Source: Stutzerimonas stutzeri
GTDB lineage: Bacteria > Pseudomonadota > Gammaproteobacteria > Pseudomonadales > Pseudomonadaceae
NCBI RefSeq assembly: GCF_024448895.1
Contig: NZ_JAMOIC010000020.1
Location: forward strand, 21,154-85,153
DNA length: 64,000 nt
Direction of reading: 5' to 3'
The notes below the pieces were generated by a model. That model was not told the DNA's origin. It made no database searches and saw nothing but the letters and a program-made list of their open reading frames with translations. This document shows, piece by piece, positions 1 through 18,262 of this stretch (its first letter is position 1; every line of letters begins with the position of its first letter). The position numbers and the translations under genes were made by a program.

Positions 1-398
1 GCCTGCAAAGGGTAGCGCAGCAAGCCGGCTGTCGCAGGTGCTGCGCCGTCCAGCCATGAACCAAGTGGGCTGATGACGCGGCCTAACAACGCATCGCCCA
101 CCACCACACCGGAACGCTCCCCCGTGGCAACAATTTCAGTTCGGGTGGACAGCCCTTCCAGCGACCCTATCGGCGCGAGAATCGCCTCGTCGCCATCAAA
201 GCCAACCACTTCCGCCTGCAGGGCGCGCTGACTCAAAGGGTCGCTCAGGTGACACAGTTCGCCGATGCCAACGCCCGCCACACTGGCGTGTACCAGGGTG
301 CCACGGATGCTGCGGATGCGCCCGCGCATGGGCCGAGGTTGAGCATCACCCAGGCGCTTGGCCAAGATTGGTAACAAGCTGTCCAGCGCAACTGTCAT
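1..398 (-). CDS. sctN: Type III secretion ATPase SctN, N-terminal part (cut by window edge)
   Basis: The frame begins at an ATG at 398 that overlaps the stop of sctL (ATGA) and is open to the window edge, giving about 132 residues. They form the N-terminal beta-barrel of a FliI/YscN-type ATPase: MRGRIRSIRGTL, then GELCHL, a VVGFDGDEAIL stretch and GRVISPLGSWLDG, which matches the usual 'GRVLDGLGRPLDG' turn of the family. The Walker A motif lies beyond the edge. SctN is the hexameric cytoplasmic ATPase that unfolds and unloads substrates at the export gate. Its place directly after sctL, the stator that holds it, is the standard T3SS order. Confidence 0.88.
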   Translation of the reverse strand, partial: MTVALDSLLPILAKRLGDAQPRPMRGRIRSIRGTLVHASVAGVGIGELCHLSDPLSQRALQAEVVGFDGDEAILAPIGSLEGLSTRTEIVATGERSGVVVGDALLGRVISPLGSWLDGAAPATAGLLRYPLQ

Positions 399-982
399 GC
401 TTGCGGCTCGGTGGTATGAGGCAACAAGCTCTGGCGGATCGCGCGCAGCTGCGCCTCAACGCCAAGTTCGACACTGGCGATGGCACTGCTCAGGCGTGCC
501 TGACCGGGTTCGACGCTCGCATCCGCCTCGAGGGAGAGACGGGCGGCCAAGTCCGGCTCGATTCGTTTCACCAGCGCCTCAAGCTCGGCCGGCGCGACAT
601 ACAGCGTCAGTGCCTGGCTGTCGCGGAATGCCGTCAGCGCCTTGCGCGTGCAGCCAAGCAACAACTCGCTGGAGTCCATGGGTTCCAGTACTTGGCGAAC
701 AATATTCAGGGCAAGGTCAGCCATGCTGCTTTCCAGGCCAGCCAGGTAGTGATCGACCTTGGCTGAGGTCTGCGCCAACAACGCCGAGGCCTGCTCTAGT
801 CCTTCATCGCGACCTTGCGCTAATCCTTCGCTGCGCGCCTTTTCAACGACACGCCGGGTGTTGGCGCGGATGGTGTTCGACTCCTCGCGCGCCGCTTGCA
901 GAAAGGCATAGCCTTCGACCCAGCGAGTCGCATCGTCCTGGCGAATGATTTTCTGCGGTGGCCGGCTCGGTAGTTCGCTCAT
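395..982 (-). CDS. sctL: Type III secretion stator protein SctL
   Basis: This 195-aa cytoplasmic protein should be the SctL/HrpE/YscL (FliH-like) stator that links the ATPase to the sorting platform. An N-terminal stretch is followed by a charged helical segment rich in E, R, Q and A (about residues 25-75), and then a globular C-terminal half with the family pattern LNIVRQVLEPMD. The open frame extends 25 codons further upstream, but the ATG at 982 overlaps the sctK stop (ATGA) and gives MSELPSRPPQKII, the usual SctL type of start. The gene also overlaps sctN, so translation of K-L-N is probably coupled. In rhizobial clusters the equivalent gene is nolV. Confidence 0.82.
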   Translation of the reverse strand: MSELPSRPPQKIIRQDDATRWVEGYAFLQAAREESNTIRANTRRVVEKARSEGLAQGRDEGLEQASALLAQTSAKVDHYLAGLESSMADLALNIVRQVLEPMDSSELLLGCTRKALTAFRDSQALTLYVAPAELEALVKRIEPDLAARLSLEADASVEPGQARLSSAIASVELGVEAQLRAIRQSLLPHTTEPQA

Positions 983-1590
983 TCCAGGAATTCCTTGGCT
1001 GCGATCTCGCGAATCAGAGTGATGCCTTGGGGTGGAAAGTCGCTGAACTGCAGCCACCTGGGATCCAGCCGCAAGCGCAACCAGCGCTGTAGATCATCTG
1101 GTAGCGAGCACAGCCAGGCCCTGACGCAGGCGTCGCCGTCGCGCTCGATGGCCTGTAGCAGTTGCTCGACGTCAAACAGCAAATCCATCGCACCGGCCTT
1201 ATCGCGATGGGCCAGGGCGAACTCGAATACATCGGCGCCCAGCTTGTCCTTGAGCGCCTGAACGGCTGCGCCACGAATCTCCCGCGCGAGCGCATTGGCA
1301 TGCCAGGTCGCGCCGCATAACAGCGCCAGGCGAGGTAGGTGCTCAGGCGCGAGCAGCATGATGTGAACGTCCGCCTCAACGCGCGGCTGCGCGAGCGGCG
1401 TCAACTTGAAGTGATCGAGGAGCAGACGTTCCAGCCGGGTGCGATAGCGCGATTCACTCAACAACGCATTGAGCTGCTCGGTGTTCAGGGCACCTGCAAA
1501 ACATTGGTTGAGGCTGGCGGGCAGTACATAGCTCAGCGGCTGCGCAGCGACGGCCCGCCACTGCTCTTGAAGAGAGGGCTGAGCAGTCAT
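979..1590 (-). CDS. sctK: Type III secretion accessory protein SctK
   Basis: This 203-aa soluble protein resembles the SctK/YscK/NolU family, which connects the SctD inner-membrane ring to the SctQ sorting platform in the cytoplasm. The sequence has no signal peptide or membrane segment. It is leucine- and arginine-rich and contains WHANALAREIRG and a C-terminal LRLDPRWLQFSDFPP stretch. Position is a strong part of the call: it lies between sctJ and sctL with 4-bp overlaps on both sides, the order J-K-L-N seen in Ysc clusters and, as rhcJ-nolU-nolV-rhcN, in rhizobia. Sequence conservation in this family is low, so the name rests on motif resemblance plus synteny. Confidence 0.75.
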   Translation of the reverse strand: MTAQPSLQEQWRAVAAQPLSYVLPASLNQCFAGALNTEQLNALLSESRYRTRLERLLLDHFKLTPLAQPRVEADVHIMLLAPEHLPRLALLCGATWHANALAREIRGAAVQALKDKLGADVFEFALAHRDKAGAMDLLFDVEQLLQAIERDGDACVRAWLCSLPDDLQRWLRLRLDPRWLQFSDFPPQGITLIREIAAKEFLE

Positions 1591-2357
1591 TCACTTTCCT
1601 TCAAGACGTAGATACCCGGCGTTTCGCGCTGCCGCCAGAAGTGCCACCCGATCGCGCCCGCCATACCAAGCAATAGAATCAACCCGGAAAAAAGCATGAC
1701 TTTGGCTCTGGCAATACTGGCCTCGAGCATCCACAAGCCAAGGAAGGATTTGAGCGGCGGTGCGTTGTCCTGGGAGCGCACCGCGGCTTCGACGGCGGTA
1801 ACTGAAACGCCGTCGTAGCCCAGCCCGGAGATGCTGCTAGCGACCAGGGATTTGATCTGAGGCACCAGCTTGTCCACTTCCGTACTGGCTTCGTAGCGGA
1901 TCAACACCGAGGCCGATGACGGCGAGATGACTCGTTTCAGCAGGTCATTGTCAGGTAGCACCACATGCACCCGTGCTGACAACACACCATCTATCTGGGA
2001 CACCGTATGAGACAGTTCTTCGCTAAGCGCATAGACCATCTGCGCGCGCTCCTGCACGGGAGAGGACACCAGGCCGTTGCCTTTGAACACATCGCCCATA
2101 TTGGAGAACTTCTGCTCGGGCAAACCGATGTCGTCCAACAAGGTGACGGCTTCTGAGAGGCGTTCCTCCGGCACGGTCACCGTCATCTTGCCGTCGTCCT
2201 GCACCTTGCGCTGCGCAGCGATGCCATCGCGCAACAAGGCGGCTACCATCTTGTTCGCTTCGCGCTCGCTGAGGTTGGTGTAAAGCGTCGAATCACAACC
2301 CTGCAGCAGGATAGTGAAGACAACTAGCAGCACCGCATGCCAGCCGCGCCTAGCCAT
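1587..2357 (-). CDS. sctJ: Type III secretion inner-membrane ring lipoprotein SctJ
   Basis: This 256-aa protein is a clear YscJ/HrcJ/PrgK family member that forms the periplasmic inner-membrane ring with SctD. A lipoprotein signal ends in LLQGC (Cys21). It is followed by the conserved LYTNLSEREANKMVAALL segment, two ring-building domains, and a C-terminal transmembrane helix at about residues 218-240 with a short basic cytoplasmic tail. Typical internal motifs are NGLVSSPVQERAQ and ALSEELSHTVSQIDGV. It overlaps sctK by 4 bp and starts 2 bp after sctI. Length and layout are normal for the family. Confidence 0.95.
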   Translation of the reverse strand: MARRGWHAVLLVVFTILLQGCDSTLYTNLSEREANKMVAALLRDGIAAQRKVQDDGKMTVTVPEERLSEAVTLLDDIGLPEQKFSNMGDVFKGNGLVSSPVQERAQMVYALSEELSHTVSQIDGVLSARVHVVLPDNDLLKRVISPSSASVLIRYEASTEVDKLVPQIKSLVASSISGLGYDGVSVTAVEAAVRSQDNAPPLKSFLGLWMLEASIARAKVMLFSGLILLLGMAGAIGWHFWRQRETPGIYVLKESE

Positions 2358-2359
2358 AC

Positions 2360-2788
2360 TTACTGCCCTTTCATCAAGGTATTGGCTGAGCCAGAAATCT
2401 GCGTCGCGCCACGCACCACCATCTGGGTTTCAATCGAATAGTCGAACACCCTGCTCAGAGAGTTCATCAATTTATCGACCTGGGCTTCGCTGGTTTTGCC
2501 TGGCTCCACCGTCCCGGACTTGTCTGCCTGGCCCGCGTAGTCGGGGCTGCTGCTGGTGTAGCGCTGATTGGTGGCGGACGTGCTGGATGCGCGCTCGGAA
2601 AAATGTTGCGAACGGTCGATAAAACCGTTCAGACGCTGCATCAGATTTTCACCAACCTGATTAGGCCCAGCGCCTGCCGGCATACCTTTGGAATGGCTCG
2701 CCATGTGTTCGAACAGGTTCTGGGAAACCTGCGCCATCGCGTCTTGCCCGGCGACTGGCGGCGTGGCTACAGCTGCACTTGGAAGCAT
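2360..2788 (-). CDS. sctI: Type III secretion inner rod protein SctI
   Basis: This 142-aa protein is predicted to be the inner rod/needle adapter. The C-terminal 30 residues carry the family signature: an amphipathic helix VFDYSIETQMVVRGATQ followed by ISGSANTLMKGQ, close to YscI/PscI and HrpB. The N-terminal two thirds are polar and low in complexity, as usual. It sits directly before sctJ, the place held by yscI, hrpB or nolB in other clusters. A GAGG ribosome-binding site lies 6 bp before the ATG at 2788. The 67-aa gene ends 14 bp upstream. Confidence 0.83.
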   Translation of the reverse strand: MLPSAAVATPPVAGQDAMAQVSQNLFEHMASHSKGMPAGAGPNQVGENLMQRLNGFIDRSQHFSERASSTSATNQRYTSSSPDYAGQADKSGTVEPGKTSEAQVDKLMNSLSRVFDYSIETQMVVRGATQISGSANTLMKGQ

Positions 2789-2802: not shown

Positions 2803-3006
2803 CTATTCTTCGTCGTCGGCCTGGGCTTCTTTAAGTATTTCCTGAGCGCGCGGCATGATGATGAACTGACCACCGAGCACGATTGCCTGAGTGATCATCT
2901 GATCCATCAGCTCTTCATCGTTCTGCGCGCTATTCAATGCTTCGGCGAAATCATCTGCCGAGTTCACCTGCCCGGCGGTTGCGCCATCTACGGGATTCAC
3001 TGCCAT
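2803..3006 (-). CDS. 67-aa acidic T3SS-associated protein, possible needle or chaperone
   Basis: This small acidic protein of 67 residues has a strong AGGAGA ribosome-binding site before the ATG at 3006. It has a Gly/Asn/Asp-rich N-terminus (about 1-18), a predicted helix DDFAEALNSAQ, a hydrophobic helix QAIVLGGQFIIM (about 40-51) and a charged tail. There is no Cys and no signal peptide. It lies between the N-terminal secretin half and sctI, in the same operon. That position and size would fit a needle or pilin subunit (SctF, NopA-like), a HrpF-type small protein or a needle chaperone. I do not recognise the family firmly, so no symbol is given. The 53-aa gene at 10277-10438 is a competing candidate for the needle. 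Confidence 0.6.
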   Translation of the reverse strand: MAVNPVDGATAGQVNSADDFAEALNSAQNDEELMDQMITQAIVLGGQFIIMPRAQEILKEAQADDEE

Positions 3007-3038
3007 GATTTTCTCCTGGGTAGTTACTGGGTTTGTGA

Positions 3039-3680
3039 CTACTGCTTGGATCTCGCTTCCACCAACTCAGTGGCGGCGCTGCCGCGGAACACCCTCACAC
3101 CGTGCTCACGTACCACCGGGCCGGGCTCGGGGCGGGCAATCTGCTCGATGCGCTGCTCGACCAACGCCATGAAAGCAGGGGGCCCGGAGACCATCAGTCC
3201 GTCGCCCTGGAAGCTGTTGCGCACATGCAAGTGCTTTCCGCTGACACCAAGTTCATCGAGGCTGGCTTGCAGATCTTTCGCACTCAGCCCTACCGCTTCG
3301 AAGTTGCGAATTTGCAGATCGTCCTCACTGTCGACGTACAACATGTTGCCGTCTGAGAACCAGGTAAGCGTGTTATTTGTTGTGAGTTTGTCGAGGAATG
3401 CGCCGGCGTTCGCCGCACGAAAGTTGGCTGGCGCACGACCTTTGACTTTGGCCGAAATCACCATCGGCACCCCCAGATTACGACCGAACGCCTGAAGTAC
3501 ACCGCGCACATCCTGATCAATGACCACGTAGGCATAGGGCCGGGAGGCCCATTCTGGCTGGCCTTGCGCGCTCGCCGCCGGTATCACCGAAAACAATCCG
3601 ACAGCGCAGAGGGCTGAGGCGAATACGCGACCTATCCGGCGAAACCAGGCACTGGCCGCACAAATCACAAGTTTTCTCAC
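3039..3680 (-). CDS. sctC1: T3SS secretin N-terminal half, RhcC1/HrcC1-like
   Basis: This is a 213-aa exported protein with a signal peptide ending near IPAASA and then the N0-N1 region of T3SS secretins: SRPYAYVVIDQDVRGVLQ, FGRNLGVPMVISAKVKG, FLDKL and WFSDGNMLYV. It ends after the second N domain and has no secretin pore domain. A separate gene (5046-6332) encodes the pore half, as in rhizobial rhcC1(nolW)/rhcC2. The frame is open far upstream, but that part is antisense to the TPR gene. The GTG at 3680 gives the signal peptide, so it was chosen as the start. It should stack on the inner rings as the periplasmic part of the outer-membrane channel. Confidence 0.8.
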   Translation of the reverse strand: MRKLVICAASAWFRRIGRVFASALCAVGLFSVIPAASAQGQPEWASRPYAYVVIDQDVRGVLQAFGRNLGVPMVISAKVKGRAPANFRAANAGAFLDKLTTNNTLTWFSDGNMLYVDSEDDLQIRNFEAVGLSAKDLQASLDELGVSGKHLHVRNSFQGDGLMVSGPPAFMALVEQRIEQIARPEPGPVVREHGVRVFRGSAATELVEARSKQ

Positions 3681-3737
3681 GCTGGCAATGCGCCCGCCTT
3701 CAAGCACGCCGTTAGAATAGCCGCCGCGCCCGGTCAA

Positions 3738-4580
3738 TTGGCCAGTACATTGGGAGTACCGAATTTGCTCAGCCCCGTTGTTTTTCGACTGGCATTTCTT
3801 TCTGTCAGCGTCGCACTCTCTGCCTGTAGTTCCACCAGCAACAACAGCCCCACTCCCCCGCCCACCCCAGCCGACCAGAGTAGCTACGGCCGCTTGATGA
3901 AACTGGCCGATGATGTTGACCAGCGCGGCGACCACGGCACCGCTGCCACCCTTTACTTGCGCGCGACTCAGGAGCCCGGTGCGGGTGTTGAAGCCTGGAA
4001 CCGGCTGGGCGAGTTGAAGCTGGCCACCGGCGATGCCATAGGCGCCGAAACCGCCTTTCAACAAGCACTGGCGCTCGACCCGGATAAACCGCAAAGCCTG
4101 CTCGGCCTGGGTACAGCGCAATTGCGCCTCGGTTACGCCGAGCATGCTCAACCGTTGTTGGCGAGCGCCGCACCGCGGCTGAACAGCGTAACTGCCTTCA
4201 CTCGACTGGGCGTCGCCGAAGCCTTGCTCGGGCATACCGGCCGCGCACAGGACGCTTTCTTCAATGCCAAAGCCTTGGCGCCCAATAACCTGGACAGCCG
4301 CTGTAACCTGGCGCTGGCCTACGTTCTGAATAACCAACCGGACCTGGCTCTGGATGAGATCAGCGGCGCTGACACGGCCCCTGCCGCGCAACCGCGCCAC
4401 CAACGCAACACTTTGCTGGTGCAAGTGCTGGTCGGCCGCTCGGGCAACCCCGCCGAGGTGCGTCTGGACGGTATTGATGCTCAACAGCGGCAATCGCTGA
4501 TCGACGACGCCAAGCGTATCGCTGCGATCAAGGACCCCGCGACCAGAGCGCAGGCCATGGGCTTGGTTGAACGTCACTGA
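3738..4580 (+). CDS. TPR lipoprotein, TadD-like, between the two secretin halves
   Basis: A protein of up to 280 aa is encoded opposite to the rest of the T3SS operon. A lipoprotein signal ends LSAC (Cys30 from the first start), followed by a Pro/Thr/Ser linker and tetratricopeptide repeats from about residue 50 to 200, such as AWNRLGELKLATGDAIGA and ALDPDKPQSLLGLGTAQL. This layout matches TadD-type pilotin lipoproteins of Tad pili. No ATG start is available: TTG codons at 3738, 3750 and 3765 are possible, and 3765 has a GGGAG sequence upstream. A role in placing or assembling the CpaC-like secretin is inferred from the family and the context. Confidence 0.8.
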   Translation: MASTLGVPNLLSPVVFRLAFLSVSVALSACSSTSNNSPTPPPTPADQSSYGRLMKLADDVDQRGDHGTAATLYLRATQEPGAGVEAWNRLGELKLATGDAIGAETAFQQALALDPDKPQSLLGLGTAQLRLGYAEHAQPLLASAAPRLNSVTAFTRLGVAEALLGHTGRAQDAFFNAKALAPNNLDSRCNLALAYVLNNQPDLALDEISGADTAPAAQPRHQRNTLLVQVLVGRSGNPAEVRLDGIDAQQRQSLIDDAKRIAAIKDPATRAQAMGLVERH

Positions 4581-4618
4581 ATGCTCGGTCATTGCCTGCT
4601 GATTCATTGCACCCCTGC

Positions 4619-5035
4619 TCACTGCAAGCCTCCTGTGTCGCTCATGGCTTCCTGCGCTTCACGGCGGCGGCGCTGCAGTTCCGCCTCACTGCCCTGCAAG
4701 TAGTACTGCGCCGCCCGGCCAACCGGCGCGGCCAGGGTGGCGCCGGTGTTACGACCGCGCTGAAGGTCTTCGCGCTGCTCAACCATCTGCAGCAGGTTGA
4801 AACTGTTGGCGCAGCCAGGCGCCAGCTTCATGGTTTCGTGCAGTTGCGCTTCAACCTGAGGGGCACCCAGGCAGGCCTCGGGCAACAAGACCTGCCGTCC
4901 GTTAGCATCAGTCATGTTCACGTAGTCGCGGGAATAGTCAGATTGCTGAAGGCTTGTCTCGCAACCCGCAAGCAGTAGGAAGATCGGCAGCATGGCCGTC
5001 GGTAGTGCCAGTAACGGCAAAAGAGCCTTGCTCAT
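4619..5035 (-). CDS. CpaD-like outer-membrane lipoprotein next to the T3SS secretin
   Basis: This 138-aa lipoprotein has a signal peptide ending LLAGC. The ATG at 5035 was chosen for its GAGGTG ribosome-binding site. The mature part contains a GCANSFNLLQMVEQREDL segment and a following 'GRN...AAQYYLQG' helix. That resembles the C-terminal signature of CpaD/pilus lipoproteins, where a Gly-Cys-Ala pair is followed by 'NLAAMV-P-DL'. It is shorter than typical CpaD. It lies 10 bp downstream of the secretin gene, and CpaC-CpaD are partners in Tad pili, which supports a secretin-associated role. The assignment rests on motif memory, not a search. Confidence 0.62.
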   Translation of the reverse strand: MSKALLPLLALPTAMLPIFLLLAGCETSLQQSDYSRDYVNMTDANGRQVLLPEACLGAPQVEAQLHETMKLAPGCANSFNLLQMVEQREDLQRGRNTGATLAAPVGRAAQYYLQGSEAELQRRRREAQEAMSDTGGLQ

Positions 5036-5045
5036 GCACGACACC

Positions 5046-6332
5046 TCATTCCATGTAGAACCCGAACGGGCCGCCATCGCGGGTTAGCGCGGCAGTGGCG
5101 GGTTGCGGCGGTTTATCGGTGGGTGACAACGTCGCTTTGGCGGTCTGAACGGGCTCGACCAAGTACGGAGTGATGAGGATCACCAGCTCAGTTTCATTTC
5201 GCTGAAAACGCTTGGAGCGAAACAGGTTGCCGAGCACTGGCATGTCGCCGAGCAATGGCAGTTTTTCCAGGTCTTGCGAGCTGTTGCGCTGGAACAGTCC
5301 AGCAATCGCGAACGTTTGCCCGCTGCCAACTTCCACCCTCGTATCGGCGCGCCTCACCCGAAACGAGGGCACTTGGTAACCGGAGATCGATAGAGAAGCA
5401 CTGCCCATCAAGGTGCTCACCTCGGGTCGCACCTGCAGCGCGATGCGGTCGTTGGGCAGCAGCGTCGGACTGAACACCAGCGAGACGCCGTAGGACTTGT
5501 ACTGCACCCCGACCAGATCGCTGTTGACGGGCACCGGCACCGGTACTTCCCCACCGGCCAGGAAGCTCGCAGTCTCGCCAGTGCTGGCGGTGATATTGGG
5601 CTCGGCGAGAATCTCCAGCACGCCGTTGCTCTGCAGCGCCTCCAGCACCGAGTCGATGTTGAAGTGCCCGGAATCAAGACCCAAACCGACCAGGTTCGAC
5701 GCCCCGGCAGCAGCCTGCGCCGGTAACGAGCCACCGGTTAGCAGACCGAAGGAAAAGGTGCCGTTGTTGAACAGGGCATTCCAGCTCACCCCGTAACGCA
5801 GCAGCTCGTCACGGGACACCTCGGCAAAACGCACGCGGATATTCACTTGCGCCGAGCCTCCGGTGAACTGGGCCGTATTGACCGAGCTTTCCCAGTCCTG
5901 CCCTTCGGGATCCAAAAGGGCGTTGAGGTTGATCGCCTCGCTGACGTCCTTTACCTGGCCCTTAGCGTTCAGGCGATTGCCGGCGCCCGTCACCTGCACC
6001 CGGCCTTTGGCATTCAGTGCGCGGCTGACCGGCTGGGAGTTGGCGCCTACATTGAGGCTCATGCCTGCAATCTGATTACTGTCCTTGTCGAGCGCGACCA
6101 GGGTGGTATTGCCTGGACGCTTACCGAATACGTAGATCACGCCTGGAGAAACCACCTGCAAATCGGCAATTGCCGGCTCTGCGACCAGCACCGAATCCAC
6201 CGGTTGGGCAAAGCGAATGACCCGCCCTTCGCCACTGCCCAGATCAATCACGGCATCCTGGCTCTGCGCAACGGCCAAAGCCGGCAACAGGCTTAACGCA
6301 GCTAACCATCTGCGCATCCACAGGCCGCTCAA
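5046..6332 (-). CDS. sctC2: T3SS secretin pore half, RhcC2/CpaC-like
   Basis: This is a 428-aa exported secretin with a signal peptide (MRRWLAALSLLPALAVAQ). The N-terminal domain, about 30-100, is of the CpaC type (VIRFAQPVDSVLVAEPAIAD, VYVFGKRPGNTTL-like pattern). A secretin domain covers about 170-395, with LEILAEPNITASTGETASFL, GGEVPVPVP, GVSLVFSPTLLPNDRI and the terminal ETELVILITPYLVEP motif. These are closer to Tad-pilus CpaC and rhizobial RhcC2 than to the fused YscC/HrcC. Together with the separate N0-N1 protein it would make the outer-membrane ring. The start overlaps the sctV stop by 4 bp. Confidence 0.9.
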   Translation of the reverse strand: MSGLWMRRWLAALSLLPALAVAQSQDAVIDLGSGEGRVIRFAQPVDSVLVAEPAIADLQVVSPGVIYVFGKRPGNTTLVALDKDSNQIAGMSLNVGANSQPVSRALNAKGRVQVTGAGNRLNAKGQVKDVSEAINLNALLDPEGQDWESSVNTAQFTGGSAQVNIRVRFAEVSRDELLRYGVSWNALFNNGTFSFGLLTGGSLPAQAAAGASNLVGLGLDSGHFNIDSVLEALQSNGVLEILAEPNITASTGETASFLAGGEVPVPVPVNSDLVGVQYKSYGVSLVFSPTLLPNDRIALQVRPEVSTLMGSASLSISGYQVPSFRVRRADTRVEVGSGQTFAIAGLFQRNSSQDLEKLPLLGDMPVLGNLFRSKRFQRNETELVILITPYLVEPVQTAKATLSPTDKPPQPATAALTRDGGPFGFYME

Positions 6333-8473
6333 GATGCGTTCGCCAAGGTGTTGGCTTGGCCCTCTTTGGCCAATGACGGCCGCGGCGCCGGCGCTCCCTG
6401 GCTGATGACTTTGATCGCTTGCAGGCTGTATTCGGGCGCTAACTCGGTGAACGACAACACGGCAATCTCCAGTTCATCACGGGCACGCCAGCGCACTATA
6501 TGGCGGCGTAATTCGGGGTGGACCACCAGCACCGCCTTGTGCGGATCGGGCAGCGCGGCACATTGGGCGCGCAGTTCTTTCATAAAGTGACGGGCAATAT
6601 CCCTGGGCCGCGAATCGCCGCGCGCGCCGTCCTGTACTCGCAACGATTCGAGCATCTGCGCTTCGGTGCGCGCGCCAATCACGAAGGCTGCGATGACCCT
6701 GTTGCCATCGCCGTACTGGTGGCTGATCTGCCGGGCCAAGGCCTTGCGTAAATGATCGGAAAGGCGGCCGACATCGCCTTCTCCGTTCCACTCCACCATG
6801 GCTTCCAGCAAGGCACGACGGTTGCGGATCGAGACGTTCTCGGCTACCAGACGCCGCAGCGCATCCGCCATGCGCTGCACTGGCACCACGCGCAAGGCCT
6901 CTTTCACCAGTTCGGGTGCGCGCTCTTCCAGTTGCTCCAGCAACTGACGGGTTTCCTGTATACCCAGAAAATCTCCGGCATAGCGGCGCAGTGCACGCGC
7001 CATCAGCTCTCGCAGGAGTTCATCCGGGCGCAGGTAGGCAATGGCCGCCTCGTCCAGCTGCGCGCAATACTCTTGGGCGATCCACAACGCTGGGCGGCGG
7101 TTCAGGGGCGACTGCGCTTCACGGCCCGGCACGTCGACTAGGTCCAGATGTATGGGGTCGTCCTGAAACAACACGTGCTCAAGGTGCAGCTCGCCTTCAT
7201 CGACGGGTATGCCTTCCAGGACAATGCGGAAATGGCCGCCGACCCCAGCTTGGTCAACGTGCACCGCCGGCAGTGGAAACTCGATCCCCAGATCGGCGCG
7301 CAGGTCGTTGCACAACTCCTCCAGACGTTGGCGCAACGGGTGCAGCGGCGCTGCTTCAGCCAGCGCAGGGCTGATCACCAGCAACACTCGGCTGTCGGGG
7401 GCGGTACTGGGCTCGTCCGTCTCCTCCGGCTGCGCCATCGGGGCGATTTCTTCAACCGGTTGCAGCGGTTCCTGCAGCTCGGCAGCCAGCTTCGACTTTT
7501 CGCGGCGATGCAGGGAATAGGCGCAGGCACCGAGTAAGGCCGACAGGCTCAGAAAGACAACGGCGGGAAAACCGGGAATAAACGCTACGCCCAGCAAAAT
7601 AAAGGCAGTCAGCGACAGCGCGCGCTGGCTGGCACCCATTTGCCGCATGATCTCGGTGCCGAGGTCCTCTTCGATATCTTCATTGTTGACGCGAGTGACT
7701 ACCGTGCCCGCCGCCACGGCAATCAGCAGCGCTGGAATCTGCGCGATCAAGCCGTCGCCCACGGTCAGGAGTGAATAGGTATGGGCAGCGTCGGCGAAGG
7801 TCATGTCGCGCTCCAGCATACCGATCATCAAGCCGCCAATGAGGTTGACGCAAAGGATCACCAGGCCGGCGATGGCGTCACCTTTGACGAACTTCATCGA
7901 CCCGTCCATAGCGCCGAACAGCTGGCTTTCGCGCTGCAAGTTGGAGCGCCGACGGCGTGCTTCCGGCTGGTCGATATCACCATTGCGCAGGTCGTTGTCG
8001 ATGGCCATCTGCTTGCCGGGCATGGCATCCAGCGTGAAGCGCGCGGCTACTTCCGCTACGCGCTCGGCGCCCTTGGTGATGACCACGAACTGGGCAATCG
8101 TGATGATCATGAAGATCACCAGCCCCACCACCACTTTGCCAGCAATTACGAACTCACCAAACGCCTCGACAATGTTGCCGGCATCGCCGTGCAGAAGAAT
8201 GAGACGCGTGGTGGTGATCGACAGCGACAGGCGAAACAGCGTGCTGAGCAAAATCAATGGAGGCAATGCCGACAAATCGACCGGCTTGGCGATATAGAAC
8301 GCGACGATGAGAATGAGGATGCTCAGGGCAATGTTCACGCCTATAAGCAAGTCCACCAGGTAGGTGGGCAGCGGAATGATCATCATCACAACGGCCATCA
8401 GCATGAACGCGGCGATCACCACATCCGTGCGCTTGGCGGCCAGTCGAGCGAAGGCGCTGACACGGCCCATCAT
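6329..8473 (-). CDS. sctV: Type III secretion export gate protein SctV
   Basis: This 714-aa protein is a complete FlhA/YscV/HrcV family member. The N-terminal third has about eight transmembrane helices. They are joined by the highly conserved cytoplasmic loop (DNDLRNGDIDQPEARRRR at about 159-176, and FVKGDAIAGL at about 195-204). The C-terminal half is the soluble domain that forms the nonameric ring receiving chaperone-substrate complexes. Length and motifs are normal and it looks intact. It overlaps sctY upstream and the secretin gene downstream by 4 bp each. The X-Y-V order is the same as yscX-yscY-yscV in Ysc-family systems. Confidence 0.97.
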   Translation of the reverse strand: MMGRVSAFARLAAKRTDVVIAAFMLMAVVMMIIPLPTYLVDLLIGVNIALSILILIVAFYIAKPVDLSALPPLILLSTLFRLSLSITTTRLILLHGDAGNIVEAFGEFVIAGKVVVGLVIFMIITIAQFVVITKGAERVAEVAARFTLDAMPGKQMAIDNDLRNGDIDQPEARRRRSNLQRESQLFGAMDGSMKFVKGDAIAGLVILCVNLIGGLMIGMLERDMTFADAAHTYSLLTVGDGLIAQIPALLIAVAAGTVVTRVNNEDIEEDLGTEIMRQMGASQRALSLTAFILLGVAFIPGFPAVVFLSLSALLGACAYSLHRREKSKLAAELQEPLQPVEEIAPMAQPEETDEPSTAPDSRVLLVISPALAEAAPLHPLRQRLEELCNDLRADLGIEFPLPAVHVDQAGVGGHFRIVLEGIPVDEGELHLEHVLFQDDPIHLDLVDVPGREAQSPLNRRPALWIAQEYCAQLDEAAIAYLRPDELLRELMARALRRYAGDFLGIQETRQLLEQLEERAPELVKEALRVVPVQRMADALRRLVAENVSIRNRRALLEAMVEWNGEGDVGRLSDHLRKALARQISHQYGDGNRVIAAFVIGARTEAQMLESLRVQDGARGDSRPRDIARHFMKELRAQCAALPDPHKAVLVVHPELRRHIVRWRARDELEIAVLSFTELAPEYSLQAIKVISQGAPAPRPSLAKEGQANTLANAS

Positions 8474-8826
8474 GCGGCGTTGCTCCCGCGTCGGCTCAGG
8501 TAGTGGCGAAACAGCTGCCTGCCTTCGGCGCCACGCCCGGCACGCAATAGCGCGCGGCTGCGTAAGAGCAACAGCTCGGTGGGCTCATGCTCAGGCGACG
8601 AGACGGTAAGTTGAGAGATGCGATCCAGGGCCGCCAGTGCACGTTCGCCATCGCCGACCGCGGTAAACACCACCGCAAGTCGACGCAAGAGTATCGGGTC
8701 GTCAGGGGTTATTTGCGTGGCCAGCAAAAGCATCACCAGCGCTCGGGGTGACTGGCCTGCACGCTGGTAGATATCCGCCAGACCATGGAGCAGGTGCGCC
8801 GCATCACGATTTTCCCGTTGCATCAT
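8470..8826 (-). CDS. sctY: T3SS chaperone SctY (YscY-like TPR protein)
   Basis: This 118-aa soluble protein consists of about three TPR-like helical hairpins: AHLLHGLADIYQRAGQSPRAL, LRRLAVVFTAVGDGERALAAL and LLLRSRALLRAGRGAEGRQL. YscY is a small TPR protein that binds YscX and the export gate SctV. Here the gene lies exactly between an X-like gene and sctV, with 4-bp overlaps on both sides, so the call comes from fold type, length (YscY is about 114 aa) and synteny. A Bordetella BscY-type protein would be an equivalent description. Confidence 0.78.
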   Translation of the reverse strand: MMQRENRDAAHLLHGLADIYQRAGQSPRALVMLLLATQITPDDPILLRRLAVVFTAVGDGERALAALDRISQLTVSSPEHEPTELLLLRSRALLRAGRGAEGRQLFRHYLSRRGSNAA

Positions 8827-9185
8827 TCCCCCGAGTCAGCGCGCTGCTGATCCAGCGAGCGACGGGTGTCGAGCTCGTCGCGGACCAGGGTCATAGCCAG
8901 GTTTTTGGTGTCTTCATCGAGTTCCAGAGACGGCAGGATGCGGTCCAGAATGTCCTCCAAAATTTCGCCGGGGCGCGAGCCGGCAAATAGAGAAGGATCA
9001 ATGCTGCCTAATTCGCCGAGGCGCTCCACATCGCGGCGCAGCGAGCGACGCGCCAGATCGCCGACCGGGGTAGGCAGCAACGCATCGAATAACGCTGCCC
9101 GACTGCGCTCAACGCGCTGCGCGCCTGCGCCATCTAGAGGAGTGAGCAACGTGTCGGTGGGGACGGCGCGCGGATCGACCTTCAT
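8823..9185 (-). CDS. sctX: T3SS export-gate-associated protein SctX (YscX-like)
   Basis: This 120-aa hydrophilic protein, close in length to YscX (about 122 aa), carries a LTPLDGAGAQRVERSR segment near the N-terminus and a charged C-terminal helix MTLVRDELDTRRSLDQQ. It lies immediately upstream of sctY and sctV. In Ysc systems YscX is bound by YscY and is needed early for secretion through SctV. Conservation in this family is weak, so the name depends largely on the X-Y-V gene order. No membrane segment or signal peptide is visible. Confidence 0.7.
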   Translation of the reverse strand: MKVDPRAVPTDTLLTPLDGAGAQRVERSRAALFDALLPTPVGDLARRSLRRDVERLGELGSIDPSLFAGSRPGEILEDILDRILPSLELDEDTKNLAMTLVRDELDTRRSLDQQRADSGE

Positions 9186-9188
9186 CGC

Positions 9189-10136
9189 TTAGCTTTCGTC
9201 GGCCGGAGCTGCAGCCAAGGTGAAGAAAAAGATCTCGTCACCACGCGCCAACTCCACCATTTCATCTCTGATGTCCTTTATCACCCAGCCGTCGCTAAGC
9301 GGCGCTCCTGCGTCCAGGCGAGCGCCAGACGAATCGATGACATAAGGGTCTTCACCAAACCACACCGCCTGGAAACTCACCCGCGGTTGAGCACCGGGTT
9401 CGCGAACCGCCACCTCGCTGCTTTGCAGGACAAAGTGCCGACCGTAGTGACCATCGAAGTATTGCTGCAGCGCTACCCACTGCGGGCGCTGCTCAGGTGT
9501 GAGGGTGCCCTTGGCTTTGAGCTGGCCATTGACGACGAGCAGATTCAAGTCTTTCAGACCAGCCTTGCTCGCTCTGGCGGCGAGGTCGGCACGCACCTTG
9601 TCCAGCGAAGGCACCTGTTCGACAGGGCGATCAACGCCGGTAGCGGTCAAGTTGTCCATAATGTCCAGCGACTCTCCCGGCTGGGCGTCGCTAAACATCG
9701 CGAGCGCGCTGGCGCAAATGAACATGAAAGCGCCGGCGATCAACCATTGCGGCTTGCCATACCATACCGGCGCATCCGGGCGGGGCGCACCGAAAGGCGC
9801 CTGTAGTGAAATGCTTGCCTGGCCCAGCTGGATTTCGAATGGTAACGCTGCCCGAAAGCCATGCCCGCGGGCGATGCGCGTCGTCTTGCCGGCCGCGAAC
9901 AGCTGAATGTCGCCGCCCAGCGCCTCGATAGTGACGTGCGATGCGGAAAAACGCAGGCGCACATGCTTGGTTTCAATACCAGGATCGCCCAGCACCAGAT
10001 CATCGCCTGGGCCGGCGCCGATCACGCAAACGGGCGCGTCCATCGGCAGCGACACTCCATGGTGCATACCGGCGACGACCTGTAACGTCGGGCTGTCGTT
10101 ATCCGCTTTGGACAAATGGGATGCCATGGCTGTCAT
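9189..10136 (-). CDS. sctD: Type III secretion inner-membrane ring protein SctD (FHA domain)
   Basis: This 315-aa single-pass protein has an N-terminal cytoplasmic FHA-like domain (about 17-110, with DLVLGDPGIETKHVRLRF, the usual FHA strand pattern). One transmembrane helix follows (about 131-148, WLIAGAFMFICASALAMF), then a periplasmic region with ring-building domains. This is the layout of SctD/YscD, which forms the outer of the two inner-membrane rings with SctJ and contacts the secretin. The ATG at 10136 was chosen because a GGGGTGG sequence lies just upstream. A longer frame starts at 10169 without a ribosome-binding site. sctX follows after 3 bp. Confidence 0.88.
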   Translation of the reverse strand: MTAMASHLSKADNDSPTLQVVAGMHHGVSLPMDAPVCVIGAGPGDDLVLGDPGIETKHVRLRFSASHVTIEALGGDIQLFAAGKTTRIARGHGFRAALPFEIQLGQASISLQAPFGAPRPDAPVWYGKPQWLIAGAFMFICASALAMFSDAQPGESLDIMDNLTATGVDRPVEQVPSLDKVRADLAARASKAGLKDLNLLVVNGQLKAKGTLTPEQRPQWVALQQYFDGHYGRHFVLQSSEVAVREPGAQPRVSFQAVWFGEDPYVIDSSGARLDAGAPLSDGWVIKDIRDEMVELARGDEIFFFTLAAAPADES

Positions 10137-10242
10137 TCGACCCACCCCGCCTACTGCCGGGAACGGCATCAGGCGTTAAACAGATATGCACGCGCTACGT
10201 GGGCTCGCACATACGCATAAAAACGGAAAAATGAGCCAGGGT

Positions 10243-10276: not shown

Positions 10277-10438
10277 TCAGTTCTGCGGACGCTGTTTGGT
10301 AGCGTCAAGCTCAGCTTTCTTAGCGGTCGTGATCTCGGTGATCTTGGCCGACTTCTCAATGGCCATATCAAAAACAGCGGACATCTTGTCGATAGCGGCG
10401 TCAGAGTTACCGCTGCTTACTGGTGGTGTATCAGCCAT
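10277..10438 (-). CDS. 53-aa T3SS-associated protein, candidate needle/pilin subunit
   Basis: A small ORF starts at the ATG at 10438 with a GGAGAT ribosome-binding site 5-6 bp upstream. It encodes a 53-aa hydrophilic protein with a Ser/Pro/Asn-rich N-terminus and one long predicted helix (DAAIDKMSAVFDMAIEKSAK to about residue 48). It has no Cys, no signal peptide and no membrane segment. It would be the first gene of the T3SS operon and is followed by a strong hairpin before sctD. That resembles highly expressed needle or pilin genes such as hrpA, but at 53 aa it is short for SctF (usually 70-90 aa). I do not recognise the family. The function is inferred from position only. Confidence 0.6.
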   Translation of the reverse strand: MADTPPVSSGNSDAAIDKMSAVFDMAIEKSAKITEITTAKKAELDATKQRPQN

Positions 10439-11285: not shown

Positions 11286-11362
11286 TGGCGCAGCGGACGG
11301 GACTCGAACCCGCGACCCCCGGCGTGACAGGCCGGTATTCTAACCGACTGAACTACCGCTGC
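11286..11362 (-). tRNA. tRNA-Asp (GTC)
   Basis: A 77-nt tRNA with encoded CCA. The acceptor stem GCAGCGG pairs with CCGCTGC. The D-loop contains AGTTCAGTCGGTTAGAAT, the anticodon stem-loop reads CCGGCCTGTCACGCCGG with anticodon GTC, and the T-arm is GCGGGTTCGAGTCCCGT. It is the second gene of a two-tRNA transcript. Its 3' end faces the T3SS side. Confidence 0.96.
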
Positions 11363-12814: not shown

Positions 12815-13765
12815 ATGCGCGCTCTCGCCGCCCTTAGCCGCTTTGTCGGCAACACGTTTGCCCTCTGGGTCCTGCTCTTCGCCGTTCTCGCCTTCTTCCA
12901 GCCCAGCTGGTTCCTCCCCGCCACCGCCTGGATCGTCCCGTTGCTGGGGCTGATCATGTTTGGCATGGGTCTGACATTGAAGGCAGCGGATTTTGCCGAA
13001 GTCGCGCGTCGCCCTTTGTGGGTTGCGCTAGGAGTGGGCTCGCAATTCCTGATCATGCCCGCGCTTGCCTGGGTGCTCTGCCAACTGCTGGGGCTGCCTG
13101 CCGAAATAGCCGTCGGTGTGATTCTGGTGGGCTGCTGCCCGGGCGGCACCGCGTCGAACGTGATCGCCTGGTTCTCTCGCGGTGACGTGGCACTTTCGGT
13201 AGCGATCACCGCCGTTACCACCCTCCTCGCCCCATTGGTAACGCCCGCATTGATATGGCTGCTGGCTTCAGCCTGGCTGCCGGTCAATTTCGGCGCGCTG
13301 TTCATGTCCATCGTGCAGATCGTGTTGTTGCCTGTCGCCTTGGGATTGGTCGTTCGTCGGTTGCTAGGCAATCGTGTGCACCACGTGGTCGACATTCTGC
13401 CGCTGGTTTCGGTGGTCAGCATCGTGATTATCGTGGCCGCTGTGGTAGCGGCCAGTCAGGCCAAGATCGCGGAGTCCGGCCTGCTGATCATGGCGGTGGT
13501 GGTGTTGCATAACAGCCTGGGGCTCGGCATTGGCTATCTGGTCGGCCGACTGTTCGGCCTGCCGCTGGCGCAGCGCAAGACGCTTTCGATCGAGGTCGGC
13601 ATGCAGAACTCCGGCCTCGGCGCAGCCTTGGCCAGTGCACACTTTTCACCCCTGGCAGCGGTACCCAGCGCGTTGTTCAGTGTCTGGCACAACCTCTCCG
13701 GCGCGCTGCTCGCCACGTTCTATCGGCGAATGAAGGATAACGACCCGAAGAGCCCTGGCGCCTGA
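12815..13765 (+). CDS. Bile acid:sodium symporter family (BASS) transporter
   Basis: This 316-aa integral membrane protein has about ten hydrophobic helices. It has the BASS-family pattern, including GLIMFGMGLTLKAADF after the first helices, the VGCCPGGTASNVIAWFSRGD signature (about 110-128), and EVGMQNSGLGAALASAHF (about 265-282). These glycine-rich motifs hold the sodium and substrate sites in YocS/ASBT proteins. The ATG at 12815 has AAGGT upstream. The substrate cannot be read from sequence; organic anions such as keto acids or pantoate are typical of bacterial members. It follows rdgC by 63 bp and could be co-transcribed. Confidence 0.88.
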   Translation: MRALAALSRFVGNTFALWVLLFAVLAFFQPSWFLPATAWIVPLLGLIMFGMGLTLKAADFAEVARRPLWVALGVGSQFLIMPALAWVLCQLLGLPAEIAVGVILVGCCPGGTASNVIAWFSRGDVALSVAITAVTTLLAPLVTPALIWLLASAWLPVNFGALFMSIVQIVLLPVALGLVVRRLLGNRVHHVVDILPLVSVVSIVIIVAAVVAASQAKIAESGLLIMAVVVLHNSLGLGIGYLVGRLFGLPLAQRKTLSIEVGMQNSGLGAALASAHFSPLAAVPSALFSVWHNLSGALLATFYRRMKDNDPKSPGA

Positions 13766-16646: not shown

Positions 16647-16981
16647 ACAACCAACCTTCGATGTTTGGGGGAACACGCCGCCACTCTAGGTGCGTCAACC
16701 CGCCGCAACATCCTCCCGGCCAACTAATAGCGAGGCGTATGGCCCGGGCGTAGAGACGGCTCAGATGGGGGGCGTAGAGCGGATCGCTCGCCGCACAAGT
16801 TGGCCGGCTCGTTATTCGTCATAAAAATGTCGACAAACAAGCGAATCGACACTTATCTGTCACGAGCGGCTTATAGGATCAATGCAGTTCCAAGACTGAC
16901 CCCGCAGTAGCCGCCGCCCAGCAGATGTACGGAGCCGCTCAGTCAGGAGCGACACGCATTCAAAATCCATGGAGAGATGAC
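16647..16981. other. Divergent regulatory region between aglA and the first curlin gene
   Basis: About 335 bp without genes. It contains two copies of GGGCGTAG (16746-16753 and 16770-16777) with GATGGGG between them. A candidate plus-strand promoter, TCGACA then about 17 bp and TATAGG, lies near 16846-16877, ahead of the curlin gene. Both transcripts could be controlled from here. Confidence 0.5.
16746..16777. promoter_or_regulatory. Putative MalT-type boxes upstream of aglA and the curlin gene
   Basis: Two direct copies of GGGCGTAGAG start 24 bp apart. The same 8-mer occurs in the malE/malS and amylase/maltoporin intergenic regions, there next to GGGGAGGAGG-like MalT boxes. The copies lie 100-131 bp before the aglA start and 205-236 bp before the curlin start. 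The MalT assignment is inferred. Confidence 0.5.
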
Positions 16982-18262
16982 ATGTTCAAGTGCAAGCCCC
17001 TCGCAGCCGCCATCATCGCGATTCTGGCCACTCAGGCTTATGCCGATGACAACAGCGCAGAACAGAATCAGTCCGGTGCCGACAACATTGTCGAAGTGAC
17101 CCAGACTGGCGGTCAGGACAACATTTCCTATCAATCTCAGGTTGGTGCCGGCAACGACGGCATGGTGACCCAGACCCAGGCGACAATGTCCGATGCCGTT
17201 CAGACCCAGACCGGTAACCTGAACCGCGCAGACATCGTGCAGACCTCGACCGAGCAGACCGAGGCGATCCAGCTGCAGGATGGCGACAGCCATGACGCCA
17301 GCATCGTCCAGAGCGATTCCTTCGGCGCCACCGCACGTCAGTATCAGGAAGGCAACTTCAACGTTGCAATCACTGAGCAGACCGCCGCTGACCTGAGCAC
17401 CGCTGTGATCGATCAGAACGGCAACGACAACTTCGCCGAATCGATCCAGACCAACACAGAGCTGAGCGTTTCGGAACAGCGTCAAGTCGGCAACGACAAC
17501 ATCTCGCTGGTCTGGCAAGACGGCGGTGCGCGTAACGACGGCGTGGTCAACCAGGAAGGTAATGTCAACGACGCCACCATCTATCAGGCGAACGCGTTTG
17601 ACTCGAGCGCCACGATCGACCAGCAGGGTGATTCGCAGACTGCATCGGTAGCCCAGGAAGGTGCCGAGCACAGTGCAGACATCCAGTCCAACGGTCTGAG
17701 CAACGAAGCCTACATCGACCAGAGCGGCTCGCTGCAGACCGCAACGATCTTCCAGGAAGGCACGTCCAACAACGCCGATATCTTCCAGGCCGGCGAGAGC
17801 AACACCGCCAGCACAGAGCAGACCGGCAACAACAACTACGCCGTCGTCGATCAGCTGGACGGCAGCATGCTGACTGCTTCGCTGCAGCAGACCGGCGAAT
17901 ACAACGAAGCTTACGTTACACAGGAAGGTACTGAGAACCGGATCGACTTCGCTCAGGACGGCGCTGACAACCTGCTGACCGCTACCCAGAGCGGCAACGG
18001 CAACGAGCTGACCGGTTCCAGCTACGGCGACGACAACCGTGTGGACGTGATGCAGGGCGGCGACCTCAACGTGGCCGACATCCAGCAGATCTACGGCTCT
18101 GACAACGAAGTCAGCCTGACCCAGGATGGCCAGGACAACATGGCTACCGTGCTTCAGGGCGGCGTAGGCAACCAGGCGATGCTGATGCAAAGCGGCATGG
18201 GCGACTCGGCAATCGTTTCGCAGATGGGCTCGGGCAACATGGCAACCGTTACTCAGCAGTAA
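16982..18262 (+). CDS. Large curlin-repeat (CsgA/CsgB-like) amyloid protein
   Basis: This 426-aa secreted protein starts at the ATG at 16982 after GGAGAG. A signal peptide (LAAAIIAILATQAYA) is followed by about 18 imperfect repeats of 20-23 residues. Their pattern is hydrophobic-x-Q-x-G-x-x-N-x-A-x-hydrophobic-x-Q, the curlin repeat (for example EGNVNDATIYQ, SGNGNELTG, QTGNNNYAVVDQ). The mature chain is strongly acidic with almost no Lys or Arg. It ends with GSGNMATVTQQ, much like the second curlin gene. Extracellular beta-solenoid amyloid is the expected fold. No csgEFG export genes are in the window. It sits between mal genes on the opposite strand. Confidence 0.88.
   Translation: MFKCKPLAAAIIAILATQAYADDNSAEQNQSGADNIVEVTQTGGQDNISYQSQVGAGNDGMVTQTQATMSDAVQTQTGNLNRADIVQTSTEQTEAIQLQDGDSHDASIVQSDSFGATARQYQEGNFNVAITEQTAADLSTAVIDQNGNDNFAESIQTNTELSVSEQRQVGNDNISLVWQDGGARNDGVVNQEGNVNDATIYQANAFDSSATIDQQGDSQTASVAQEGAEHSADIQSNGLSNEAYIDQSGSLQTATIFQEGTSNNADIFQAGESNTASTEQTGNNNYAVVDQLDGSMLTASLQQTGEYNEAYVTQEGTENRIDFAQDGADNLLTATQSGNGNELTGSSYGDDNRVDVMQGGDLNVADIQQIYGSDNEVSLTQDGQDNMATVLQGGVGNQAMLMQSGMGDSAIVSQMGSGNMATVTQQ

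Follow-up and report, generated by a model that had tools for sequence, protein, structure and literature searches.

Background

The systems most like the gene cluster described here, a type III secretion system (T3SS) of Stutzerimonas stutzeri, include the alpha-RhcII system of Sinorhizobium fredii plasmid pNGR234b and the second T3SS of Pseudomonas syringae (T3SS-2). The published statements used below come from parts of the papers cited. According to Gazi et al. (2012, PMC3574062), the secretin of P. syringae T3SS-2 is split, with an oppositely facing tetratricopeptide repeat (TPR) gene separating its halves, and SctD and SctV are separated by two small genes, of which the second resembles VscY. 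The same authors describe such a pair, with a YscY-like second gene, in Bradyrhizobium japonicum, and report a YscY-like gene for the T3SS-2 of NGR234 as well (PMC3574062). Abby and Rocha (2012, PMC3459982) derive RhcC2 from Tad systems and take RhcC1 for a retained N-terminal portion, the one in contact with SctD. SctX and SctY have been described as Ysc-only (PMC9163089, PMC10233624; 2022-2023).

The cluster occupies one end of a 64,000-nucleotide stretch (RefSeq assembly GCF_024448895.1, contig NZ_JAMOIC010000020.1, positions 21,154 to 85,153, forward strand) and continues to its left. This whole stretch is called the window, and positions are window positions. The fetched locus L009 includes the part of the contig (C20) left of the window.

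The region very probably carries an alpha-RhcII-type injectisome gained by horizontal transfer beside a tRNA-Asp gene. An earlier note had pointed to sctX-like, sctY-like and sctV genes, an N0-N1 half-secretin and a CpaC-like pore, all of which are present, open and where it placed them. It had concluded that the cluster was a mosaic or an intermediate lineage. This fails, because SctV, SctN and SctJ all belong to a single family, RhcII, and the X/Y pair is present in known Rhc clusters. The X-Y-V block together with a split secretin is the normal RhcII build and, as a combination, ordinary. Both parts of the supposed mosaic were in print by 2012 (PMC3459982, PMC3574062), and the present analysis removes a false oddity. 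It covers gene content and order, family placement, the integrity of the frames, purifying selection and island structure; the ring and pore roles of C1 and C2 are taken from named relatives.

Family placement

In a SctV tree of 62 rows the window lies inside a 24-row Rhc clade (support 100/100) and, with pNGR234b, within a 15-row RhcII subclade (100/98). It is separate from the rows with strong YscX matches (L020, L021 and L110). Two quick trees were also made. The SctN tree (30 rows) contains an RhcII group of 12 rows that includes pNGR234b (support 98), and in the SctJ tree (24 rows) the window groups with pNGR234b in an RhcII group of 11 rows. SctV, SctN and SctJ, the three named in the earlier note's criterion, thus group with one family, although for SctJ the support is only 81 to 93. 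There is no strong conflict between SctV, SctN and SctJ such as would mark a mosaic.

The SctV tree took 47 of 80 loci found by SctV similarity (L022-L061, L066, L067, L071, L074, L076, L090 and L095). The remaining 33 are flagellar-looking or partial and were kept out unclassified. The tree includes 55 T3SS rows: 42 obtained by SctV similarity, eight that are RhcII kin or the window itself, and five chosen with PF09474, the YscX Pfam model (L020, L021, L110, L112 and L113). Its Ysc side is represented by the PF09474-hitting loci L020, L021 and L110, with no named canonical Ysc row.

Gene organization and conserved synteny

On the minus strand the genes are, in order, a 53-amino-acid (aa) open reading frame (ORF), sctD, sctX-like, sctY, sctV, sctC2 and cpaD-like. 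A plus-strand TPR gene follows, and then, again on the minus strand, sctC1, a 67-aa ORF, sctI-like, sctJ, sctK, sctL and sctN. The features are as follows (E, expectation value; dN/dS, ratio of nonsynonymous to synonymous substitution rates; G numbers, same-genus genomes).

1..398, minus: sctN (ATPase), 5' part; ATP-synt_ab E 1.3e-81, T3SS_ATPase_C E 7.4e-23; the whole gene extends left of the window (L009:15227-16552, contig C20:20226-21551)
395..1057, minus: sctL (stator); PF06635 E 6.9e-18, TIGR02499 84.8 bits, above cut-off; the true start is probably downstream of the GTG
979..1590, minus: sctK; PF06578 YscK E 2.6e-5, and synteny
1587..2357, minus: sctJ (inner ring lipoprotein); TIGR02544 E 1.6e-66, and tree
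2360..2788, minus: sctI-like gene, a candidate for the rod judged on position and by eye; conserved in RhcII loci, no family-model match
2803..3006, minus: 67-aa ORF, candidate needle or small secreted part; conserved in RhcII loci, dN/dS 0.09 against G016, no family match
3039..3680, minus: sctC1, N0-N1 half of the T3SS secretin; SPI-1 N0 domain E 3.9e-9, TIGR02516 E 1.4e-22
3738..4580, plus (opposite strand): TPR protein with an LSAC lipobox-like motif; family scan and synteny
4619..5077, minus: CpaD-like protein with an LAGC lipobox-like motif; PF09476 E 0.0012, below cut-off
5046..6332, minus: sctC2, Tad/CpaC-type secretin pore; PF00263 Secretin E 8.3e-44, PF13629 E 2.5e-18
6329..8473, minus: sctV (export gate); TIGR01399 E 2.5e-227, above cut-off, and trees
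8470..8826, minus: sctY (TPR chaperone); NF052415 E 5.3e-16
8823..9185, minus: sctX-like gene, by profile comparison and place; lacks the C-terminal hydrophobic pair
9189..10169, minus: sctD, FHA-type domain and Y4yQ C-terminal domain; PF23893 E 7.1e-18, PF16697 E 2.7e-10
10277..10438, minus: 53-aa ORF upstream of sctD; conserved in RhcII loci, dN/dS 0.10 against G016, no family match above cut-off
11286..11362, minus: tRNA-Asp(gtc), chromosomal neighbour of the island right end (about 11218)

The X/Y, Y/V and V/C2 gene pairs each overlap by four bases. The contig continues to the left of the window with sctO, Q, R, S, T and U, two regulator genes and a gene for a 1586-aa protein. The export genes N, Q, R, T and U were assigned by Pfam, and sctO and sctS by position and synteny. 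The sctO and sctQ frames (L009 14739-15230 and 13669-14742) overlap by four bases, and there is no sctP-like gene between them, sctO itself being placed by position. Family models gave no assignment for SctI, the needle, SctO or HrpK. Both regulators combine a Trans_reg_C DNA-binding domain with a STAND/NB-ARC-type ATPase domain.

One conserved block is sctD-X-Y-V-C2-CpaD-like-TPR, and a second runs from C1 to sctT. G016, G034 and Halomonas sp. PA16-9 (L019) have both in the arrangement of the window, as does G035 as far as it was fetched. In pNGR234b (L015) and Rhizobium johnstonii pRlX5 (L017) both are present but have been moved or turned. Klebsiella pneumoniae pAP855 (L018) keeps the blocks, with the TPR gene elsewhere and X recognised by position. 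As in the alpha-RhcII description (PMC3574062), an oppositely facing TPR gene lies between C1 and C2, and sctD is separated from sctV by two small genes. Of the Ysc-family marks, there is no one-piece YscC-type secretin, and SctV is in the Rhc clade.

Some of these loci deserve separate mention. L018 (NZ_CP035384.1) is a multi-replicon Klebsiella plasmid with an RhcII-type T3SS cluster that includes X, Y, C1 and C2, and two further Klebsiella plasmids have a C2 match at an identity equal to that of L018. In Halomonas L019, sctD, sctC2 and sctU are each matched in two pieces, which may be decay or sequencing error. The 53-aa ORF has two matches there, at 13536-13700 and at 33918-34049, the latter lying beyond the sctU pieces and the large island-type gene.

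The SctX-like protein

The earlier note had taken the two small genes for counterparts of YscX and YscY. For Y this agrees with the best family-model match, which lies below its cut-off (see below), while X matches no YscX model and is linked to SctX by profile comparison. For the window X protein, Pfam listed nothing up to E 10 and NCBIfam gave nothing up to E 1. None of the 15 RhcII X proteins matches PF09474, and searches of Protein Data Bank (PDB) sequences with the window and RhcII X gave no credible match, YscX being absent from the PDB matches of the profile.

A first comparison of the RhcII X profile with a YscX-like profile gave E 7e-4 (probability 26%). With 17 YscX-like rows, hhalign gives scores of 32.7-35.4 (E 7.8e-5 to 2.5e-5, probability 61-75%), in an alignment that is colinear across about 72 columns. 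The controls remain well below this: at most 17.3 for 15 other T3SS families, 15.5 for reversed profiles and 13.8 for 100 column shuffles. An AlphaFold model of RhcII X has confident helices at 71-86 and 91-119 and low confidence elsewhere. These fit the helices described for YscX, but the fit is not specific. The profile similarity above controls, together with the place of the gene before sctY, supports the view that RhcII X is a divergent SctX, a remote homologue by sequence profile.

It is unlikely that the gene instead encodes an unrelated small protein that has replaced SctX. The missing PF09474 and PDB matches and the missing C-terminal hydrophobic pair (see below) would suit such a replacement. 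They must be set against a profile-profile score about twice that of the best control over the colinear columns, a place and size as for SctX, the overlap with sctY in the window, and predicted helices in line with those of YscX.

The C-terminal tail of the RhcII proteins is distinctive. In Yersinia, YscX docks by its C-terminal helix, which fits between the subunits of SctV and is needed for recognition (PMC9163089). Residues I, L, M, F, V, W and Y were scored as hydrophobic in the tail columns. Alignment columns 9 and 10 of the last 12 are both hydrophobic in 17 of 18 non-RhcII X proteins versus 0 of 15 RhcII X proteins, which would leave RhcII X without the C-terminal hydrophobic residues that in the YscX family bind the SctV SD4-SD4 cleft. 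Columns 1 and 2 show a similar trend (14/18 vs 1/15), and other pairs show it less or not at all. Plain hydrophobic counts differ modestly (p 0.011 for the last 12 residues, p 0.019 for the last eight aligned columns, with rows that are not independent). The window protein ends in RADSGE. YscX Leu119 is among four fully conserved tail residues (PMC10233624). By their distance from the C-terminus, columns 9 and 10 would correspond to about residues 119 and 120 of YscX, a correspondence that we can only infer because YscX is not in the alignment. The RhcII proteins lack hydrophobic residues at the helix end, so their docking on SctV should rest on other contacts. RhcII X is a natural SctX variant for asking what the C-terminal anchor on SctV does.

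The published YscV gate arginines were also looked at by eye. At least one seems to be kept in the window and in an SPI-1 gate alike; this does not discriminate and was not used.

The SctY protein

The window Y protein matches NF052415 at E 5.3e-16 and 59 bits (curated cut-off 70), ahead of the LcrH/SycD model (E 2.6e-6). This is the best NCBIfam match for all 11 Y proteins tried, namely the window, six other RhcII proteins, L020, L028, L030 and L032. The ten other than the window give E 1.5e-11 to 1.9e-29, and three pass the cut-off; one RhcII Y, that of L019, scores 77 bits. A SctY frame is found in 14 of the 15 RhcII rows, L034 having only a 69-aa match. SctY would act as the chaperone of SctX and bring it to SctV early in assembly.

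In Mesorhizobium sp. WSM4311 (L024) an open sctY frame was not found before sctV; its close relative L026 has one. L022 has a proper sctY, and in L053 X adjoins sctV, preceded by a SycN-like ORF, with no Y seen. A SctY tree, from which L022, L035 and L053 were removed and in which L024 and L034 were never included, was considered for dating transfers and dropped as too weak. A fifth SctY match in the genus, within a 953-aa frame of G047 (E 3.7e-4), was discounted as generic TPR similarity.

SctX and SctY beyond the Ysc family

X and/or Y are found next to sctV in 21 of the 42 T3SS loci fetched by SctV similarity, which are a best-hits sample that leaves 33 of the 80 loci unused. The carriers include Bradyrhizobium, Comamonadaceae, Verrucomicrobiota and Lentisphaerota. 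With the added rows, X and/or Y are present in 34 of the 55 T3SS rows of the SctV tree. PF09474 identifies 16 of them and the RhcII X profile 14, and four are placed by position alone (L018, L039, L042 and L044). This is not an unbiased share, because 13 rows were chosen as RhcII kin, as the window or as PF09474 hitters. L024 and L053 are counted on X with no open Y frame seen, and absence in the other 21 rows means that neither was seen next to sctV, the only place judged. On the SctV tree this distribution needs four changes.

These X proteins are in large part recognisable. PF09474 matches 13 of the 14 non-RhcII X candidates (set A3) with E no higher than 1, including 11 of the 12 set members chosen by position. 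Ten non-RhcII candidates pass the Pfam cut-off, among them Lampropedia, Diaphorobacter, Mailhella, Belnapia and Lentisphaeria and Puniceicoccales metagenome-assembled genomes. The ten also include one Bradyrhizobium X (25.4 bits, cut-off 25). Searched against the PDB, the A3 profile recovers AscX (E 3.6e-7) and YscX (E 1.2e-4). In random genome draws PF09474 is found in 5/398 and 2/274 genomes, and the RhcII X profile in 7/398, the window's own genome counted.

An X candidate is present in all 15 RhcII rows and a SctY frame in 14, and both X and Y in the Bradyrhizobium RhcI-side rows L032 and L033. The pair is thus native to the family. The earlier note had treated X and Y as unusual outside Ysc systems, and for Y this was already contradicted by the known Rhc clusters that carry it (PMC3574062). 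For SctX, no report outside Ysc was found in the best-ranked matches of one open-access literature collection. In Mesorhizobium L040 and L041, in the Rhc clade, sctD lies just before sctV and no X or Y is seen, an apparent loss within the clade.

SctX and SctY are not a Ysc hallmark, and the distribution runs against the current statement that they are Ysc-only. They look like an old injectisome module that was lost in several families. We suggest tentatively, and at somewhat less than even odds, that they are ancestral to most secretin-bearing T3SSs and were lost in the SPI-1-like and Hrp1 lineages, and that RhcII SctX still works with SctY and SctV without a gate-inserting tail. If this is true, control of early substrates at the gate would be independent of the SctX tail.

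The split secretin and the outer-membrane module

C1 covers positions 2-152 of the 463-position SctC model TIGR02516, and C2 consists of a Tad-type N domain and a pore. By analogy with the relatives, C1 would be a leftover N0-N1 ring that links SctD to the Tad-type outer-membrane pore of C2. The adjoining CpaD-like and TPR lipoproteins are probably the escort set of C2. The Tad-like outer-membrane module would then be a secretin plus lipoproteins and not a pore alone.

NCBIfam gave no match to the CpaD-like protein of the window up to E 0.01. The CpaD-like profile reaches a CpaD-family protein of pNGR234a (E 7e-14), which itself matches TIGR02522 (E 1e-57). A lipobox-like motif is found in 10 of 13 RhcII TPR proteins and 12 of 13 RhcII CpaD-like proteins, a count that omits two TPR matches and one CpaD match outside RhcII. 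In some of the proteins without it, the start was probably called too far upstream.

In Mesorhizobium loti, RhcC2 levels fall when the TPR lipoprotein Y4yS is lost (Mercante et al. 2015, PMC4311626), and RhcII is described as lacking y4yS (Gazi 2015, PMC4500985). We propose the TPR lipoprotein as a candidate pilotin of C2 in RhcII, where y4yS is missing according to that paper. This is a proposal only, since the NCBIfam matches of the protein (PilW-type included) are at a generic TPR level.

The island and its integrity

The left flank lies 32-128 bp from the tRNA-Val/tRNA-Asp side in four of four relatives (G023, G024, G026 and G034) versus about 31.2 kb here. The island extends over about 1160-32371 of contig C20. 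G016 has the same cluster beside the same tRNAs. In G034 the RhcII cluster is elsewhere in the genome, and in G035 the cluster and rdgC are on different contigs. A scripted search for a repeat of the tRNA-Asp end at the island left end found none, and no integrase was recognised among the left-end ORFs, which were only partly family-scanned.

The island also encodes two large proteins of 1098 aa (L128:1538-4834) and 1586 aa (L009:1863-6623), which resemble large proteins of L012, L019, L023 and L025. The 1098-aa protein is 84% identical to one in G035. Neither matched any family, the HrpK model or two HrpK-annotated proteins tried.

All 14 window frames checked are open. Eight genes have dN/dS of 0.07-0.17 against G016, and seven have 0.16-0.39 against G034, with C1 saturated. 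A decaying or silent acquisition without function, which would be consistent with the SctY gene and its cluster being found in only 4 of 37 same-genus genomes and with a cluster known from genes and not from expression, is quite improbable given these frames and ratios and the presence of the export genes upstream.

Three further observations concern this genome. Left of the window, L009:639-1550 encodes a 303-aa protein with a thaumatin-family match (E 1.5e-6), possibly a secreted protein. Window 16925-18262 is a 445-aa ORF with glutamine/asparagine-rich repeats, curlin-like by eye. Locus L014 (G000:C14:2467-4467) is a second FlhA-like flagellar-type export gate besides that of contig C1; a 379-aa gene overlaps its start, and it forms a long branch in the flagellar clade of the SctV tree.

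Weighing of the alpha-RhcII reading

Several points weigh against the assignment of the region as an alpha-RhcII injectisome with a divergent SctX. RhcII X is without a Pfam or PDB match, its AlphaFold model is weak (mean pLDDT, the predicted local distance difference test, 67) and fold searches were uninformative: Foldseek gave nothing at E up to 0.001, and VIA-align gave generic helical pairs, with YscX not among the matches listed, which excludes nothing. The tail columns were picked after inspecting the alignment. Other hydrophobic residues close to the C-terminus remain in L012, L024, L026 and L034, and the non-RhcII candidate L042, which is outside the 18 and was excluded from the joint X alignment, also lacks the pair. 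As for Y, L024 has X with no open sctY frame and the match in L034 is short. Because the iterated SctY profile recovers TPR lipoproteins and further TPR proteins as well, the Y calls draw mainly on position, with NF052415 in addition for the 11 proteins given to it. The deep branches of the SctY tree are poorly resolved, 19 Rhc rows falling on one side with support 64/49. The RhcII group of SctJ has a support of 81, and Klebsiella L018 is outside it. The TPR similarity to PilW-type lipoproteins may be generic, the likeness to P. syringae T3SS-2 comes from the description by Gazi et al. (2012) and not from sequence, and the injectisome is known here from its genes and not from expression or secretion.

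That an Rhc-type machine captured a Ysc X-Y-V block is very improbable indeed: SctX and SctY have been described as Ysc-only (PMC9163089, PMC10233624) and the window SctV C-domain scores best, among solved gates, with YscV (E 3.3e-50), but SctV itself is Rhc, SctN agrees and SctJ does so more weakly, X and Y run through RhcII and are both in Bradyrhizobium L032 and L033, and the Y gene had already been reported in Rhc clusters (PMC3574062).

Comparison with known systems

The alpha-RhcII reading can be compared with four known systems. The Tad pilus set (CpaC/RcpA, CpaD, TadD) is like the outer-membrane part in the domain make-up of C2, the adjoining CpaD-like lipoprotein and the presence of a TPR lipoprotein. 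It differs in that no Tad ATPase or pilin is among the genes identified here, neither having been searched for by name. Ysc injectisomes share the X-Y-V order and overlaps and the SctY model. They differ from the window in that the window has a split Tad-type secretin, an X without the hydrophobic pair and a SctV that lies apart.

P. syringae T3SS-2 (the hrcII cluster) has, by description only (PMC3574062), the same oppositely facing TPR gene and the same two small genes between sctD and sctV. It is also described as having a regulator with a PhoB-like DNA-binding domain and an AAA-type domain (PMC3574062), and there are two such genes here. The large island proteins of the window gave no match to HrpK, a translocator whose gene occurs in some alpha-RhcII members.

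The alpha-RhcII system of S. fredii pNGR234b differs in having the sctD-to-TPR block turned round with respect to the other genes, with the TPR gene on the strand of the block and followed by sctU. Its SctV is 46% identical to that of the window. It shares the sctD-X-Y-V-C2-CpaD-like-TPR block, has matches for C1, SctI-like, J, K, L, N, Q, R, S and T, and falls in the same SctV, SctN and SctJ groups as the window.

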